From Ectothiorhodospira lacustris (GTDB taxonomy: Bacteria > Pseudomonadota > Gammaproteobacteria > Ectothiorhodospirales > Ectothiorhodospiraceae): a DNA stretch of 64,000 nt. Below, piece after piece: positions 10,216 through 63,997 of this stretch. The first letter of the stretch is position 1, and every line of letters starts with the position of its first letter. The notes under the pieces were generated by a model, which was not told the origin of the DNA, made no database searches, and worked only from the letters and a program-made list of their open reading frames with translations. The stretch is from positions 124,001-188,000 of the forward strand of contig NZ_JAJNQN010000003.1 of the NCBI RefSeq assembly GCF_022227845.1. Reading direction: 5' to 3'. Made by a program: the position numbers and the translations under genes.

Positions 10216-11007
10216 ATGACGTTTGATCTGGAATTGATTCTGGTCCTGGGAACACTGGTGACCGGCCTGATCTGGCTGGCCGATCTGGTCTGGTGGCGCA
10301 AGGCCCGCAGGGCCCGGGGCGTCGGCGAGGCGATGGTGCCGGCCGAGCCCTGGTATGTGGACTATGCCCGTTCCTTCTTTCCCGTGTTGCTGATCGTGCT
10401 GGTGCTGCGCGCCTTCGTGGCCGAGCCCTTCCGCATTCCGTCCGGCTCCATGATGCCCACCCTGCTGGTGGGAGACTTCATCCTGGTGAGCAAGTACAGC
10501 TACGGTATCCGTCTGCCGGTGCTGCGGACCCGCGTCATCGATACGGGCCTGCCGGCGCGGGGGGATGTGGCGGTGTTCCGGTATCCCGAGAACCCGCGGG
10601 AAGACTACATCAAGCGGATCGTGGGTCTGCCCGGCGACAAGGTGGCATTTTACGGCAAGCAGCTCTATATCAATGATGTGCCGGTTGAGCAGGTCTTCAG
10701 CGAACGCTACGAGGGCAGTGGCTCCGGCGCCGTGATGACCGGCGCCCATCTCATGCAAGAGCGAATCAACGGGGTGTCCCATCAGGTCCTGTTGTGGCCG
10801 GAGCGGCCTTCGGTGGAAGGTGAGATCACTGTTCCCGCCGGGCATTACTTCACCCTGGGCGATAACCGGGACAACAGCAATGACAGCCGTTTCTGGGGCT
10901 TCGTGCCCGAGGCGAACCTGGTGGGCAAGGCGCTGTTCATCTGGATGCATTGGGATCATGGTGCCAGGGAAATGGATTTCAGTCGCCTGGGTACCCGCAT
11001 TCGCTAG
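10216..11007 (+). CDS. lepB: Signal peptidase I
   Basis: LepB removes signal peptides from exported proteins on the periplasmic face of the inner membrane by a Ser/Lys dyad. The 263-residue protein has two N-terminal transmembrane helices (about 5-25 and 53-70). Box B is IPSGSMMPTL with Ser78, box D is YIKRIVGLPGD with Lys133, and box E is LGDNRDNSNDSRFWG. It is shorter than E. coli LepB (324 aa), lacking part of the non-catalytic domain, which is common outside enterobacteria. The ATG has a GGGGAGGG ribosome site. It lies 56 nt after lepA and is followed by a 338-nt repeat-rich gap before the DUF4845 gene. Confidence 0.97.
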   Translation: MTFDLELILVLGTLVTGLIWLADLVWWRKARRARGVGEAMVPAEPWYVDYARSFFPVLLIVLVLRAFVAEPFRIPSGSMMPTLLVGDFILVSKYSYGIRLPVLRTRVIDTGLPARGDVAVFRYPENPREDYIKRIVGLPGDKVAFYGKQLYINDVPVEQVFSERYEGSGSGAVMTGAHLMQERINGVSHQVLLWPERPSVEGEITVPAGHYFTLGDNRDNSNDSRFWGFVPEANLVGKALFIWMHWDHGAREMDFSRLGTRIR

Positions 11008-11345
11008 GGATGTCCTGAACCCGTCGTTCCCGCGAAGGCGGGAATCCATGGGGTGATGGTCGTGTTTTGCCTCGATCATCGTCATTCCCGCGAAGGCGGG
11101 AATCCAGTCGCGGACTGGGGATTTTGGCTCCCGCTTTCGCGGGAGTGACGGAATAGGGGCGGGAGTGATGGAATAGGGAAGTGATGGAACAGGGAAGTGA
11201 CGAAATAAAGATTGGTGAGTGACGAAGGACGGTGAGTGGCGGCGGTCGACTTGTCCAGTGTTACCCTTGGTGGTGATTTACGCAGGCAGTTCCAATCAAG
11301 CTAATCTGATGGCACTACAATAGATACCTTCAACGGGGGCTCATC
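11008..11345. repeat. REPIN-like inverted repeats with decaying tandem tail
   Basis: A 338-nt gene-free stretch. A first palindrome (TTCCCGCGAAGGCGGGAA core) is at 11023-11048. A second, at 11081-11106, is paired with its inverse (CTCCCGCTTTCGCGGGAG core) at 11127-11149, making a 70-bp inverted pair (11081-11150). Downstream, 11141-11240 holds imperfect short repeats of a GGGAGTGATGGAATA-type unit, each copying the end of the right arm with increasing decay. The stretch opens with TGTCCTGAACCCGTC at 11011, a motif also seen at the ends of rnhB and recD. Around 11316-11321 a TACAAT could serve as a -10 for the next gene, but no convincing -35 is seen. Confidence 0.85.
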
Positions 11346-27904: not shown

Positions 27905-27974
27905 GCGCCCGCGCTCCATGCAAACCAAACTGCGGAGCGCAGTTCATCCGACCTTTACGTTTTATGAATCCACA

Positions 27975-28032
27975 CATGCGCCGACACGTTCAGCGGGGTG
28001 CCCCTGAAAGGGGTTGCTGATCGGGGCGCATG
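27975..28032 (+). ncRNA. Structured rpsB 5' leader (putative S2 autoregulatory element)
   Basis: CATGCGCC (27975-27982) pairs exactly with GGCGCATG (28025-28032), closing a domain that contains CAGC/GCTG and a CCCC-TGAA-AGGGG inner hairpin. A separate perfect hairpin, AACTGCG-GAG-CGCAGTT, lies just upstream. Gammaproteobacterial rpsB mRNAs are known to carry conserved leaders through which S2 represses rpsB-tsf; that this is the same element is inference from position and structure. Confidence 0.5.
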
Positions 28033-28062
28033 GAGGCCCAACCCTGAGGAGATCTTCTCATC

Positions 28063-39415: not shown

Positions 39416-39498
39416 TCAGTGGTTTGCAGGTATTGCGCAGGGTAGAACCCTGCAGGATGACTGTGAACGAATGGCCATATAAGGGGTGTTCTGAATAA

Positions 39499-39569
39499 GT
39501 CGTTCCCGCGCAAGCGGGAATCCAGTCACAGGCTGAAAATCCTGGACGCTCGCCTTCGCGAGGGTGGCC
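39499..39569. repeat. REPIN-like inverted pair between lpxD and fabZ
   Basis: Left arm GTCGTTCCCGCGCAAGCGGG begins at 39499. A degenerate right arm (ACGCTCGCCTTCGCGAGGGT) ends near 39566. The middle, AGTCACAGGCTGAAAATCC, resembles the middle of the copies at 11081 and 48357. Just upstream lies GTGTTCTGAATAAGTC, a divergent form of the motif seen before other copies. No tandem tail is present. The rest of the 200-nt lpxD-fabZ gap shows nothing else clear. Confidence 0.8.
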
Positions 39570-39615
39570 TCAGGGGACTTGTTCAGTTTTCCTAACACAC
39601 ATAAGGAATGACAAC

Positions 39616-47541: not shown

Positions 47542-47658
47542 GGGCGGTCCGGGGGCTTGCGGTGAACGGCGCGGCATGAGCCGATGGCCCTGATGGGGTG
47601 CGCCTTGGTAGCATGTCGTGCTGGCATTTTACTCCAAGCGTGGCGAGAACGACATCTG

Positions 47659-48264
47659 ATGCAACCTGATCTGGTGAACCTGGGCCTGCGGCCGGATGTG
47701 GCGGGCGTGGACGAAGTGGGCCGCGGTCCGCTGGCGGGTCCGGTCGTAGCGGCGGCGGTGATCCTGGATCCGGCCCGTCCCATCGACGGATTGAAGGATT
47801 CCAAGGCCCTGAGTCCGGCTCGGCGAGAGGCCCTGGACGGACTGATCCGGGAACGAGCACTGGCCTGGTCCATTGCGATCTGTTCGCCGGCGGAGATCGA
47901 TGCGTTGAATATCCTGCAGGCCAGCCTGCTGGCCATGCGCCGGGCGGTGGAAACCCTCGCCACCCCGGCCGGCCTGGCCCTGGTGGACGGCAATCGCTGT
48001 CCGGAGGCGATGCCCTGTCAGGTCCTGGCGGTGGTGCAGGGGGACAAGACCGTGGCGGCCATCAGCGCGGCGTCCATCATCGCCAAGGTCTATCGGGATG
48101 CCCTGATGGTGGCCCTGGATGCCGAGTATCCCGGCTACGGGCTGGCGGGCCACAAGGGTTACCCCACCCCCGTGCATCTGGAAGCCCTGGCCCGCCTGGG
48201 GCCGAGCCCTTGTCATCGAATGAGTTTTGCCCCGGTACGGCGGGCGGCCTGCAAGACGTCCTGA
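47659..48264 (+). CDS. rnhB: Ribonuclease HII
   Basis: RNase HII cuts at ribonucleotides embedded in DNA and at RNA in RNA-DNA hybrids. The 201-residue protein has the signature [20 protein letters not shown] with catalytic Asp18 and Glu19, [15 protein letters not shown], and later acidic residues in ALVDGNRC and [26 protein letters not shown] is also conserved. The stop codon lies inside the recurrent motif GACGTCCTGAACCCGTC, and the stop is immediately followed by the repeat field 48258-48545. Confidence 0.95.
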
Positions 48265-48545
48265 ACCCGTCATTCTGCCCTGGAGGGATTTTCTGTAGGG
48301 TGTCTTGACCCCGTCACTTCTGCCCGGAGGGGCGGCTTTCAGGGTGTTTTGGGCCCGTCATTCCCGCGCAAGCGGGAACCCAGCGGCTGGTAACGGACTG
48401 AAAGTTCCGGACTCCCGCTTTCGCGGGAGTGACGCCAGGTGTGTTTCTGCGGGAGTGACGGCGATATGCTTTCACGGGAGTGGCGCCAATGTATATTCGT
48501 GGGAGTGGTGACATTAATGCGCCTTCGCAGGAATGGTGACGCCAG
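48258..48545. repeat. Compound repeat field between rnhB and dnaE
   Basis: A 365-nt gap (48265-48629) dominated by repeats. Three direct, imperfect 44-nt units begin near 48258, 48302 and 48346 (GTCCTGAACCCGTCA type). The third runs into a REPIN-like inverted pair (48357-48434: arms TTCCCGCG-CAAG-CGGGAA and CTCCCGCTTTCGCGGGAG). Then come five degenerate copies of GGGAGTGACG at about 48425, 48451, 48476, 48501 and 48529, spaced about 25 nt. The final roughly 85 nt before dnaE is AT-richer; a TATCTT there could be part of a promoter but no good -35 is seen. Confidence 0.88.
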
Positions 48546-48629
48546 TGGACTTTTTCAGAAATACCTTTAACACCCTTCCCCTGCTATCTTGTCCCCCCTG
48601 CCTGCTTCAAGCCTTCAGATATCACTGCG

Positions 48630-53188: not shown

Positions 53189-53231
53189 CCGGCCCCCATC
53201 CCTCTCCCGAAGGGAGAGGGATGGGGGCCGG
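53189..53231. repeat. Perfect 20-bp-arm palindrome between accA and tilS
   Basis: Arms of CCGGCCCCCATCCCTCTCCC and its exact reverse complement flank a GAA loop. The CCCTCTCCC/GGGAGAGGG core resembles a palindromic repeat common in proteobacterial intergenic regions. There is no following U-run, so it may slow transcription or protect mRNA ends rather than act as a classical terminator. This is the only copy in the window. Confidence 0.8.
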
Positions 53232-53266
53232 CACAGTGCCCGCCTACCGTTGAAACCGATTCTCCC

Positions 53267-61000: not shown

Positions 61001-61846
61001 GCCCAGGAAGAGCGTCTGCGGGAGGCCGTCGACGATGCGGGGACGCAGCCTGCTGCGTTCCCATCGCCCGATGCATCCTCCACCGCGCAATCCGCATCCC
61101 TCGTGGTTGCGCCACCGGCGGATTTCCCCCGCGGCCCCGAACCCGGCACCTTTCTTCACGGTCTGCTGGAATGGATGGCCCGCGCCGGGTTCGAGACACT
61201 GGCCCGGGATCCGTCGCCCTTGCGGGAGCTGGTGGCCCGGCGCTGTCATCACCGTGGCTGGGACCACTGGATCGATCCACTTTACCAGTGGCTGCAGGCC
61301 CTGCTGCAGATGCCCCTGCACTGGGAGGGGGGCGGCACGCCCCTGGTCTTGGGGCGGCTCGCCACCTGTCAGGCGGAGATGGATTTCTGGTTCCAGGCCG
61401 GACACGTGGACACCCTGACCCTGGACCGGCTGGTGACCGCCCATACCCTGGACGGCCAGCCCCGGCCGGCCCTGCTGCCGGATACCCTCAACGGCATGAT
61501 GAAGGGTTTCATCGACCTGGTGTTCGAACACCAGGGGCGCTATTACGTGGCCGACTACAAGTCCAACTGGCTGGGGGATATGCCCGGTGCCTACCGGGCC
61601 GAAGCCCTGGTCACGGCGGTTGTCGCCCGCCGTTATGACCTCCAGTACAGCCTCTATTGCCTGGCCCTCCATCGACTGCTGCGGGCGAGATTGCCGGACT
61701 ACGACTACGAACGACACATGGGCGGTGCCCTGATCTTCTTCCTGCGGGGGCTGGATCTTGATGGCGGCGGGATTCATTTCGAACGCCCCGGCGCCGGTTT
61801 CATGCACGCCCTGGACGGACTCTTTGCCCAGCGGGAGCAGATCTGA
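58070..61846 (+). CDS. recB: Exodeoxyribonuclease V subunit beta
   Basis: RecB is the 3'-5' SF1A helicase and nuclease of RecBCD. The 1258-residue protein has Walker A in LIEASAGTGKTFTIAALYVR, the DEFQDTDPVQYRIF motif, LIGDPKQSIYAFRGADIHTY, TIHKSKGLQYPLVFLPF and LLYVAMTRACHAC. The C-terminal nuclease domain has KGFIDLVFEHQGRYYVADYK with Asp1149, Asp1162 and Lys1164, aligning with E. coli Asp1067, Asp1080 and Lys1082, so nuclease activity is expected. A short direct duplication (LCADALCADA) lies in the linker near residue 890. The ATG is at 58070, 14 nt after recC; the stop overlaps the recD start (TGATG). Confidence 0.96.
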   Translation: MPHAQVLDPLRFPLHGSRLIEASAGTGKTFTIAALYVRLVLGHGADNAFPEPLLPPRILVVTFTEAATKELRERIHARLMEAARVFRDPAERSLDPFLSALLADHPDAAGRALAARRLEQAAQWMDEAAVSTIHSWCYRVLREHAFDSGSLFTQNLATDQAELLAEAVRDYWRTVVYPREPVGLGLLRNVLGDGPEALRPILLRLLAGDPPQDEPGCLDGILAARVALLERLKAPWRDEFDALADQFRQGLLPVLNGNKYRNPERLLACMRQWALDPARIRPDPPGSQDPLEQLSRSGMAARLKKGGNLPDDLHPAFGLLEQAHDLDRDLGAEVLGHAAAWVHHRFRQAQGRLAQLGFDDLLTRLRDALEGAGGDRLADTLRRQFPVALIDEFQDTDPVQYRIFERVYDLEAGTPDAGLFLIGDPKQSIYAFRGADIHTYLKARLATHGRHYTLGVNFRSTVAAVAGFNRLFALGERQHPRGAFLFRPGPTSDNPVPFLPVQARGHETALQVDGRPQPALTLWHLEGDNPLGRQAYIDTMAVRCAGAMADLLAAARAGRAGFIDPSDPDNPIFTPLKPRDMAVLVRDRGEAHGIQAALRAQQIRSVYLSDRESVYLSPEADDLLRWLRACAEPESDCLLRAALATPVLDLSFSALEALNQDELHWERMVEQFRGYRRCWRNQGVLPMLRHLMHDFELPRRLFGRPFGERRLTNLLHLSELLQSAATELEGEHALIRHLVEHRQAARQAGDEQILRLESDEDLVKVVTIHKSKGLQYPLVFLPFIAGYRPGNGGKPPLIYRDGTGQRVVSFTPDEDDQARADEARLAEDVRLLYVAMTRACHACWLGVASVKDRSKDGGFHRSALGSLLGGGKPISPAALRERLDALCADALCADAPPPSALAVTHCPSIDPVIQVIPAPPEPETGPSVPGQTPPTASYGLARRPLRPAREHWWIASYSALRAVGRDHPAAQRPDPESAQEERLREAVDDAGTQPAAFPSPDASSTAQSASLVVAPPADFPRGPEPGTFLHGLLEWMARAGFETLARDPSPLRELVARRCHHRGWDHWIDPLYQWLQALLQMPLHWEGGGTPLVLGRLATCQAEMDFWFQAGHVDTLTLDRLVTAHTLDGQPRPALLPDTLNGMMKGFIDLVFEHQGRYYVADYKSNWLGDMPGAYRAEALVTAVVARRYDLQYSLYCLALHRLLRARLPDYDYERHMGGALIFFLRGLDLDGGGIHFERPGAGFMHALDGLFAQREQI

Positions 61847-63963
61847 TGCCCATCACGCCGGATACATGGCTGACCCGTTGGCCGTCGTTGCGGACATTGC
61901 TCGACCAATGGACCGAACGGGGGTGGCTGCGGCCCCTGGATCGGGCACTGGCCGCCTTCCTGCAGGAACAGGCCCCGGATACGCCACCGCTGGTGCTGCT
62001 GCTGGCGGCTCTGGCCAGCCACCAGCTGGGCCGGGGCCATGTCTGCCTGGATCTGCCGGTCCTCCTGGCGGATCCGGACCTGAGCCTGTCCCTGCCGCCG
62101 GAATCGGACGCCGGGCTGCTGCCGCCTCCGCGTCCTTCCTGGTGCCTGGCGGGGCTGGATCTGCCGACTCTGCATCAGGCCCTGGCGCAGGCCCCGGCGC
62201 TGGTGGGGGAGGGCCTGGGCACCACTCCGCTGGTGCTGTCCGGTCAGCGTCTTTACCTGCGGCGCTACTGGCAGTACGAGCAATGTATCGGCCGAGCCAT
62301 CCGCGAGCGGTTGCACCAGGGGGCGGTCCTGCGGCAGGGGCTGTCCAGCAAGGCCATGCGTCACTGGCTGGACCGACTCTTCGGCCCGGTGCGCCCCGAC
62401 GAGCCCGACTGGCAACGCATCGCCTGCGCCCTGGCTGTGGGCGGGTCCTTCGCGGTCATCACCGGTGGGCCGGGCACCGGCAAGACCACCACTGTGGTGC
62501 GCCTGCTGGCCCTGCTGCAGGCGCTGCATCTGTCGGCGGGGACGGACCGCCCCCCTCTGCGTATCCGCATGGCCGCCCCCACGGGCAAGGCGGCGGCGCG
62601 GCTCAACAGCTCTGTGGCCGGCAAGGTGGGGGAACTCTCCCTGCCGGACGACGATCTGGGCCACCGCATCCGCGTCGCCATCCCCACCCAGGTGACCACG
62701 GTCCACCGGTTGCTGGGCAGCCGACCCAACAGCCGGCATTTCCGCCATCATGCCCGCAATCCCCTGCCGGTGGATCTGGTGGTGGTGGATGAGGCCTCCA
62801 TGATCGATCTGGAACTGATGGCCCAGTTGGTGCAGGCCCTGCCGCCGGAGGCGCGTCTGATCCTGCTGGGGGACAAGGATCAGCTGGCCTCGGTGGAGGC
62901 GGGGGCGGTATTGGGGGAACTCTGTGCCCGGGCAGACGGCGGCCATTACCGGCTGCAGACCCGGGACTGGTTGCACGGGGTCAGCGGGGAATCACTGCCG
63001 TCTTCAGGGCTGGACACCGGCGGGCAGCCTCTGGATCAGCACATCATCATGCTCAGACAGAGCCATCGCTTCGGTGCCGACAGCGGCATCGGGCGTCTGG
63101 CCCGGGCGGTGAACGCGGGGGATCCGGCCCAGGTCGCGGCGGTCTGGGAGGGCAGGGACCTACTGCCGGACCTGGCCCGGGTCCTGTTGCAGGGCAGCGG
63201 TGACAAGGCCCTGGAGCAGGTGCTGATCATGGGGGGAGGGCGCCTGTTCCAGGATGCTCCGGCAGGGCGGGAGGGGCGGCCCCACGGCCACGCCCATTAT
63301 CTTTCGGTGATGCGCGCGTCCGATCCCGGAAACGGGGCCTGCCGTGAGGCGGTGGATGACTGGGCCAGACGCATCCTGAGCGCCCAGGGCGGTTTTCAGT
63401 GCCTGTGTGTGGTCCGCGGCGGGCCTTGGGGCGTGGAGCAGATGAATCAGCGTATCGCCCAGGCCCTGGGCAGGGCGGGTTTGCTGGCGCCGGAAGGGGT
63501 CTGGTATCCCGGACGGCCGGTGATCGTCACCGGCAATGATTACGGTCTGGGGCTGATGAACGGGGATATGGGCATCACCCTGTCCATGCCCGACCCGGAG
63601 GCCCCGGGTGGGCGGGTGTTGCGGGTTGCCTTTCCGGCGGCGGACGGTAGCGCTCGGGTACGGTGGATCCTGCCCAGCCGCCTGAGCCGGGTGGAAACCG
63701 TGTTCGCCATGACGGTCCACAAATCCCAGGGCTCCGAATTCCGCCACACCGCCCTGGTTCTGCCGGACGCCCCCAGCCCGATCCTGACCCGGGAACTGAT
63801 CTACACTGCCGTCACCCGGGCCAGCCGTTGGTTCAGCCTGCTGATGCCCAGGGCGGGGATTCTGGAAACGGGCGTGAAGCGTCGGGTGCTCAGAAGCAGT
63901 GGTCTGAGGGCCGCGCTGCTATCCACAAAACCTGTGGAAAACTCTGTGGAAAGGATGTCATGA
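61846..63963 (+). CDS. recD: Exodeoxyribonuclease V subunit alpha
   Basis: RecD is the fast 5'-3' SF1B helicase of RecBCD and is needed for regulation by Chi. The 705-residue protein has Walker A ITGGPGTGKTTTVVRLLALL (Lys213), MAAPTGKAAARLN, VDLVVVDEASMIDLELM, LILLGDKDQLASVEAGAVLG and the C-terminal AMTVHKSQGSEFRHTALVLP with ELIYTAVTRASRW. It is longer than E. coli RecD (608 aa), mainly in the region around residues 370-480. The last codons carry three DnaA-box-like sequences, and the stop lies in the motif TGTCATGAACCCGTC. Confidence 0.95.
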   Translation: MPITPDTWLTRWPSLRTLLDQWTERGWLRPLDRALAAFLQEQAPDTPPLVLLLAALASHQLGRGHVCLDLPVLLADPDLSLSLPPESDAGLLPPPRPSWCLAGLDLPTLHQALAQAPALVGEGLGTTPLVLSGQRLYLRRYWQYEQCIGRAIRERLHQGAVLRQGLSSKAMRHWLDRLFGPVRPDEPDWQRIACALAVGGSFAVITGGPGTGKTTTVVRLLALLQALHLSAGTDRPPLRIRMAAPTGKAAARLNSSVAGKVGELSLPDDDLGHRIRVAIPTQVTTVHRLLGSRPNSRHFRHHARNPLPVDLVVVDEASMIDLELMAQLVQALPPEARLILLGDKDQLASVEAGAVLGELCARADGGHYRLQTRDWLHGVSGESLPSSGLDTGGQPLDQHIIMLRQSHRFGADSGIGRLARAVNAGDPAQVAAVWEGRDLLPDLARVLLQGSGDKALEQVLIMGGGRLFQDAPAGREGRPHGHAHYLSVMRASDPGNGACREAVDDWARRILSAQGGFQCLCVVRGGPWGVEQMNQRIAQALGRAGLLAPEGVWYPGRPVIVTGNDYGLGLMNGDMGITLSMPDPEAPGGRVLRVAFPAADGSARVRWILPSRLSRVETVFAMTVHKSQGSEFRHTALVLPDAPSPILTRELIYTAVTRASRWFSLLMPRAGILETGVKRRVLRSSGLRAALLSTKPVENSVERMS

Positions 63964-63997
63964 ACCCGTCAAAACCCCCGTCAGGGCATGGGTTCAA
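63961..63997. repeat. Recurrent TGAACCCGTC motif and hairpin at recD 3' end
   Basis: TGAACCC at the recD stop pairs with GGGTTCA at 63990-63996, forming a loose hairpin. The motif ATGTCATGAACCCGTC matches those at 48255-48270 (rnhB end) and 11011-11025 (after lepB). The window ends 37 nt after the stop, so any larger repeat cannot be seen. Confidence 0.5.

Follow-up and report, generated by a model that had tools for sequence, protein, structure and literature searches.

IS5 of Escherichia coli is an insertion sequence of 1195 bp. Its ends span 16 bp and its sites are CTAA or CTAG, according to the available part of the source (PMC11677980). BrickBuilt, a miniature element (MITE) of Porphyromonas gingivalis, combines IS5-like ends with internal tandem repeats, every copy being intergenic in the accessible portion of the report (PMC4596501). 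The element QMITE2 of Coxiella burnetii occurs at the 3' end of enhC, where one strain gains C-terminal residues and another carries the element after the stop codon, as given in extracts of its description (PMC5896051). The dRS3 pattern of Neisseria, part of the NIME arrays, is ATTCCC(N8)GGGAAT in the text available on it (PMC3898611). As far as these partial sources go, precedents exist both for MITEs that contribute residues to a protein or follow the stop at the 3' end of a gene and for MITEs whose IS5-like ends enclose internal repeats. Among the matches listed, no description of stop-codon duplication by an IS5-type element was found in the open-licence literature.

The window studied here, a stretch of 64,000 nucleotides from the Ectothiorhodospira lacustris genome (G000), contains a short repeated motif, about GGATGTTCTGAAYNNGTCATTCCCGC, which is the left terminal inverted repeat (L-TIR) of an IS5-type MITE. 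As in IS5, within what the partial source presents, the 16-bp ends of this element start with GGA and finish with a GAAYAAG-like sequence, 4-bp duplications are found and the targets are CTAA/CTAG-like; unlike IS5, it has no internal transposase, its interior is made up of dRS3-like hairpins and its autonomous partner was not found in the same genome. The hairpin matches the Neisseria dRS3 pattern exactly and variants such as ATTCCCGCCTGCGCGGGAAT also match the phage-Nf1 subtype pattern, both as given in the accessible text (PMC3898611), but here some of the hairpins lie within a TIR-bounded element with target duplications. QMITE2 at enhC likewise occupies the 3' end of a gene and adds residues or follows the stop, although it adds 33 residues in the extracts available, compared to 2-4 here, and these extracts contain no account of a duplicated stop codon (PMC5896051). 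BrickBuilt, as partly documented, shares the IS5-like ends around internal repeats and the location of its copies outside genes, but differs in its end sequence (GAGACC..) and its 23-nt repeats (PMC4596501). The element is an IS5-type MITE of an ordinary kind that lands at stop codons somewhat more often than expected.

A sequence-only reading of the window had placed the motif directly after lepB, over the stop codons of rnhB and recD and, as a variant, ahead of a further repeat copy, and the motif was found at all of these positions. The features concerned are given below, with G002 and G003 denoting genomes of E. shaposhnikovii and G004 that of E. magna.

10216..11007, + strand: lepB (signal peptidase I; Pfam PF10502), its TAG at 11005-11007 abutting the element
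11008..11265, + strand: MITE copy 3' of lepB, with the L-TIR at 11008-11025 and the right end GACTTGTCCAGTGTTACC
39484..39592, + strand: MITE copy missing from the collinear G003, with flanks TAAG / TAAC
47584..48264, + strand: rnhB (ribonuclease HII; Pfam PF01351), its TGA at 48262-48264 within a degenerate L-TIR copy
48254..48341, + strand: two degenerate left-end copies before the main rnhB element, with the motif at 48257 and 48301 (44-bp step)
48342..48565, + strand: MITE copy 3' of rnhB, with the L-TIR at 48342, hairpins at 48361 and 48412 and the right end at 48548-48565
61846..63963, + strand: recD (Pfam RecD_N), its TGA at 63961-63963 within TIR-like sequence
63953..63971, + strand: TIR-like GGATGTCATGAACCCGTCA without a hairpin, a probable remnant

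The 15-mer TGTCCTGAACCCGTC is exact at 11011-11025, 3 bases past the lepB TAG, and has one mismatch at both rnhB (48257-48271) and recD (63956-63970), where the TGA of the motif is the stop codon of the gene; the variant GGGTGTTCTGAATAAGTC occupies 39484-39501, immediately ahead of a hairpin at 39503, and an additional copy with 2 mismatches was detected at 48301-48315. With up to 3 mismatches, this literal 15-mer gave 7 matches in the window against 2.37 expected (7 were reached in 2 of 100 shuffles), and with up to 2 mismatches it gave 35 matches genome-wide against 23 for the reversed control, that is, only weakly above chance in both cases; it was dropped as a repeat unit because of the poor genome-wide specificity. 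At the gathering threshold no Rfam family was detected at the motif sites, the sole match in the window being an unrelated t44 RNA (27953-28042, + strand, RF00127, 81.1 bits vs a gathering score of 44). A long hairpin, GGCCCCCATCCCTCTCCC..., which is missing in G003, is located at 53191-53264 and may be terminator-like or another small insertion.

A refined 19-nt consensus, GGATGTTCTGAANNNGTCA, had 50 matches in the 3.28-Mb genome and none in the control, and the pattern of L-TIR plus hairpin, TGTTCTGAAYNNGTCATTCCCGC, was found at 72 genome sites, again with no control match. The L-TIR runs straight into the hairpin GTCATTCCCGCGNNNGCGGGAATCCA, of which 405 genome copies were detected with up to 3 mismatches (control 0); these hairpins are intergenic and often paired, and a minority of them carries an L-TIR. 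On the far side a related inverted end is present, reading GGAAACACTGAAYAAG or GGAAGTTCTGAAAAAG on the opposite strand. This longer consensus, the hairpin and the related inverted far end identify the motif as the L-TIR of a miniature element, the interior of which consists of one or more dRS3-like hairpins (GTCATTCCCGCGNNNGCGGGAATCCA, CTCCCGCTTTCGCGGGAG) and repeats thereof, most copies measuring about 110-430 bp. In the window, the copy behind lepB holds hairpins at 11027, 11085 and 11128, and folding of the copy at 39484..39592 was stronger than that of 200/200 shuffles (z -4.78). At 42 of the 79 distinct L-TIR sites that were placed, a right end scoring at least 11/16 was present, so that both ends were found; as the best score within 480 bp was taken, part of these 42 are doubtful, several of the picked ends being weak, and three rows represent a single tandem array. 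Tandem repetition was also observed at G000 C23:71381-71496 (L104-L106), where the left end of one copy stands in three repeats with 45-bp steps; together with the 44-bp steps at rnhB, element ends seem prone to tandem duplication.

Insertion of the element is accompanied by a 4-bp target duplication. When the left and right 4-bp flanks of the 42 two-ended sites were compared, 95 of 168 letters agreed, against a mean of 61.0 and a maximum of 82 in 5000 shuffles. Empty sites were found in the nearest named relatives, which are Ectothiorhodospira species (RnhB is 87-88% identical to those of E. shaposhnikovii and E. magna): G003, collinear with the window, lacks the element of 39484-39592, G000 C23:87301-87599 is an insertion relative to G003 with a 4-bp duplication of TTCG, and a site flanked by CTAA/TTAA (L096) is empty in G002 and G003. 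A duplication of 3 bp, initially suspected at rnhB and 39484, was replaced by one of 4 bp on the evidence of C23:87301, pheS, a dacC-like gene (both described below) and the flank statistics. Against the MITE explanation, the flanks agree in only 3 of 4 letters at the window copies behind lepB (CTAG / CTTG), at 39484 and behind rnhB (TTCA / TTTA). The 66 clean left flanks favour Y-[TC]-A-R (Y in 57, T or C in 53, A in 34 and R in 59), the strict form YTAR being present in only 8/66 vs a background of 0.3%.

Placement of the motif is not random, given these flanks and the finding that 0/79 L-TIR sites lie inside a called gene running on for more than 90 bp, neighbouring genes having been called with a simple home-made codon-score caller; we infer that selection is the reason for the intergenic placement. 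Sites with L-TIR and hairpin numbered 72 in G000, 35 in G002, 19 in G003 and 2 in G004, and 0 in the other 16 of the 20 genomes searched, and therefore the element has expanded inside one clade. Behind lepB, G003 holds a shorter version of the element after the same stop. At G003 C22:163782-163793 a bare GGATGTTCTGAA stands where G000 holds the full element, an apparent deletion scar. A further insertion of about 318 bp, missing in G003, was noticed at G000 C23:102444-102761 (L279); its alignment overlaps by 4 letters and it contains a palindrome, CCCCGCCGTTCAGGGCGGGG, which is also found beside a broken Y1 transposase (L219) and which we take to resemble IS200/IS605 ends.

Three features indicate the IS5 type, namely the GGA...GAAYAAG ends, the duplication of 4 bp and the CTAA/CTAG-like targets. 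A complete element of 1196 bp with matching ends (GGAAACGCTGAACAAG / GGAAACGCTGAATAAG, flanked by TGAA/TGAA) is present in E. magna at L359:1006-2201 and encodes an IS5-family transposase (NF033581, 330.7 bits vs a cut-off of 140); the MITE right-end consensus agrees with its end at 15/16 positions and the L-TIR differs from its ends at 4/16. Compared with E. coli DNA, this transposase gene gave partial matches only, with no place at least 80% covered. In G000, none of three DDE_Tnp_1 matches bears such ends, and the partner was possibly lost from this genome. Mobilization of the MITE in trans by an IS5-family lineage like the E. magna element appears plausible on these grounds. We consider it very probable that a non-autonomous IS5-type MITE, moved in trans to approximately YTAR with a 4-bp duplication, explains the motif.

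An upstream gene faces the element at 35 of the 79 L-TIR sites. At six of these 35 the gene's own stop abuts the first TIR base, namely lepB and five genes which we take, as recognized from their translations, to be tpx, a dacC-like gene, maf, pheS and ilvE; at a seventh site (L117) a TAG stop shares that first base. The stop lies inside the TIR at 3/35, the TGA of recD, the TGA of a presumed photolyase gene (phrB) and the TAA of what is presumably a GGEF gene, and rnhB is a fourth such case that falls outside the 79, its first left-end copy failing both patterns. The identity of lepB, rnhB and recD only was confirmed with Pfam. Of the 66 clean TIRs, 28 have the 3' end of a gene pointing at them, which lies within 100 bp in 20 cases; in 5 of these 20 the TIR abuts the stop, compared to 0.2 under uniform placement and about 1 expected from the element's own flank preference (p 0.003), the latter value having been obtained by applying to 136 gene ends of one contig the preference shown by the remaining 61 flanks. 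As TGA is the commonest stop here (104/136 gene ends), an overlap with TGA is easier to get. Stop-adjacent landing is mostly a matter of target preference and gene avoidance, with a modest excess.

In two genes, pheS and the dacC-like one, the insertion target was the stop codon itself. The pheS site is empty in G002, G003 and G004, where it reads CAGTTCGTCTAACCC, while G000 has CAGTTCGTCTGA, the element and then CTAACCC; the target was CTAA, a C plus the stop TAA, and its duplication left a stop on either side, the left one now being TGA. The dacC-like gene is empty in G003 and G004 and shows CTAA on both sides in G000. In both genes stop and C-terminus survive because the CTAA stop context was the target and was duplicated. 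The CTAG stop of ilvE adjoins the left end in G000 and right-end-like sequence in G002 and G003, and G004 reads CTGA without an element. The different ends point to either two independent insertions at a single stop codon or a flip of the element there (L096, L253, L098).

Based on these observations, a mechanism can be proposed in which an IS5-family transposase acting in trans would put copies at roughly YTAR tetranucleotides, each insertion duplicating the 4-bp target. A TAA or TAG stop after a pyrimidine is itself such a target, so that some copies would fall exactly behind a stop and the duplication would leave the gene a stop, with the C-terminus unchanged. One frame of the TIR contains TGA, and a second contains TAA where the sequence reads GAATAA; copies landing a few bases within a gene end, probably at rnhB, recD and phrB, would thereby end the protein after 2-4 residues encoded by the element.

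In the case of rnhB, G002 and G003 have a single left-end copy reading ..CAGGCGTCCTGAATCCGTYATTCCCGCG.., so that the left end joins the hairpin in register. RnhB extends 7 residues past SFAPVR in this clade and 5-6 in five other genomes of the genus, a sixth (G005) having 7 residues past SFAPVQ. The protein of E. magna has the same QAS end, followed by an apparent interior scrap of the element; this gene was at one point considered a clean empty site and was dropped, as TGAAGCATC past its stop is interior sequence found in G002 and G003, and the sequence suggests a deletion scar. Most likely, the element inserted long ago in the last codons and its TIR now gives the stop, the left end having later been repeated in G000 in 44-bp steps.

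The sequence-only reading also suggested that the motif provides stops and may have redefined C-termini, which, taken as a rival explanation, would be a systematic effect. The repeat is indeed mobile, and rnhB, recD and phrB (TGA) and perhaps the GGEF-domain gene (TAA) end within it, the last 2-4 residues of RnhB, RecD and PhrB, perhaps also those of the GGEF protein, being probably element-encoded and their rnhB, recD and phrB stops of presumable TIR origin; in addition, phrB of G002 terminates 4 codons sooner, at a TAA ahead of its own element copy. These are, however, just 4 of about 80 sites (3 of the 79 plus rnhB), RnhB tail lengths hardly differ, the stops of pheS and the dacC-like gene are older than the insertion, and among the sites facing a gene 3' end the stops within the TIR (3/35) are exceeded by abutting stops of the gene's own (6/35). 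Moreover, an apparently element-free relative was available for 13 sites; the stop codon position was shared with all such relatives at 11 of them and differed by three codons at the other two (L247 and L242, each vs G004). This comparison covered 28 sites, 21 with relatives, its pool consisting of loci for 16 selected sites together with a single G003 contig. It counted as element-free a relative with no hairpin or L-TIR within 250 bp, a rule that misses a lone right end and errs for the recD relative and probably for phrB of G003 and the relatives of the GGEF gene, which keep TIR-like sequence; the 13 therefore do not include the recD, phrB and GGEF sites. Altogether, systematic redefinition is overstated and we judge it quite improbable. 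Another reading, in which stops are a favoured, self-repairing landing site with target and end logic making gene-end insertion harmless, would take the 5/20, against about 1 expected, as a true preference: at gene ends the YTAR-like target would meet Y-TAA/TAG (also Y-TGA), duplication of the 4 bp would restore the stop and the element end would carry back-up stops. We consider this reading unlikely.

For recD in particular, chance resemblance may be considered while the IS5-type MITE is kept for the other sites. The region has no hairpin, its folding is not significant (z 0.44), the sequence is conserved in G002 and G003 (as CCATGTCATGAACCCGTCA) and the 15-mer at up to 2 mismatches is poorly specific; nevertheless, the site has 2 mismatches to the 19-nt consensus, a class with 0 control matches genome-wide, and a partly inverted copy, TGGGTTCAAAACA, lies within the next 50 bp. 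Chance is a possibility to which we give some, although the lesser, credence, the sequence being likely an element remnant. In E. magna the recD end is rearranged, a dacB-like gene directly following recD, and G004 C28 (L205) is without the two ferredoxin-like genes that separate them in G000. Lastly, the motif could be the flank of REP/BIME-type palindromes moved by a RAYT (REP-associated tyrosine transposase), as the 405 small intergenic hairpins, frequently paired and in a minority with an L-TIR, might indicate. A search with the PF01797 profile detected no RAYT gene in the genome, only one Y1_Tnp gene broken into two pieces by an internal TGA and with no L-TIR-like end nearby, on account of which a RAYT origin was rejected; the TIR-bearing copies, in turn, show 4-bp duplications and an IS5-type partner, and this explanation is very hard to sustain.

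Gene ends call for some caution, since the element may encode the final residues of some annotated proteins and, once deleted, can leave a scar resembling a native gene end, as seems to be the case for E. magna rnhB. The overlap between repeat and stop codons is explained by a target-site logic that is testable in any genome with IS5-type elements: insertions at gene ends are made neutral where TAA or TAG forms part of the duplicated target.
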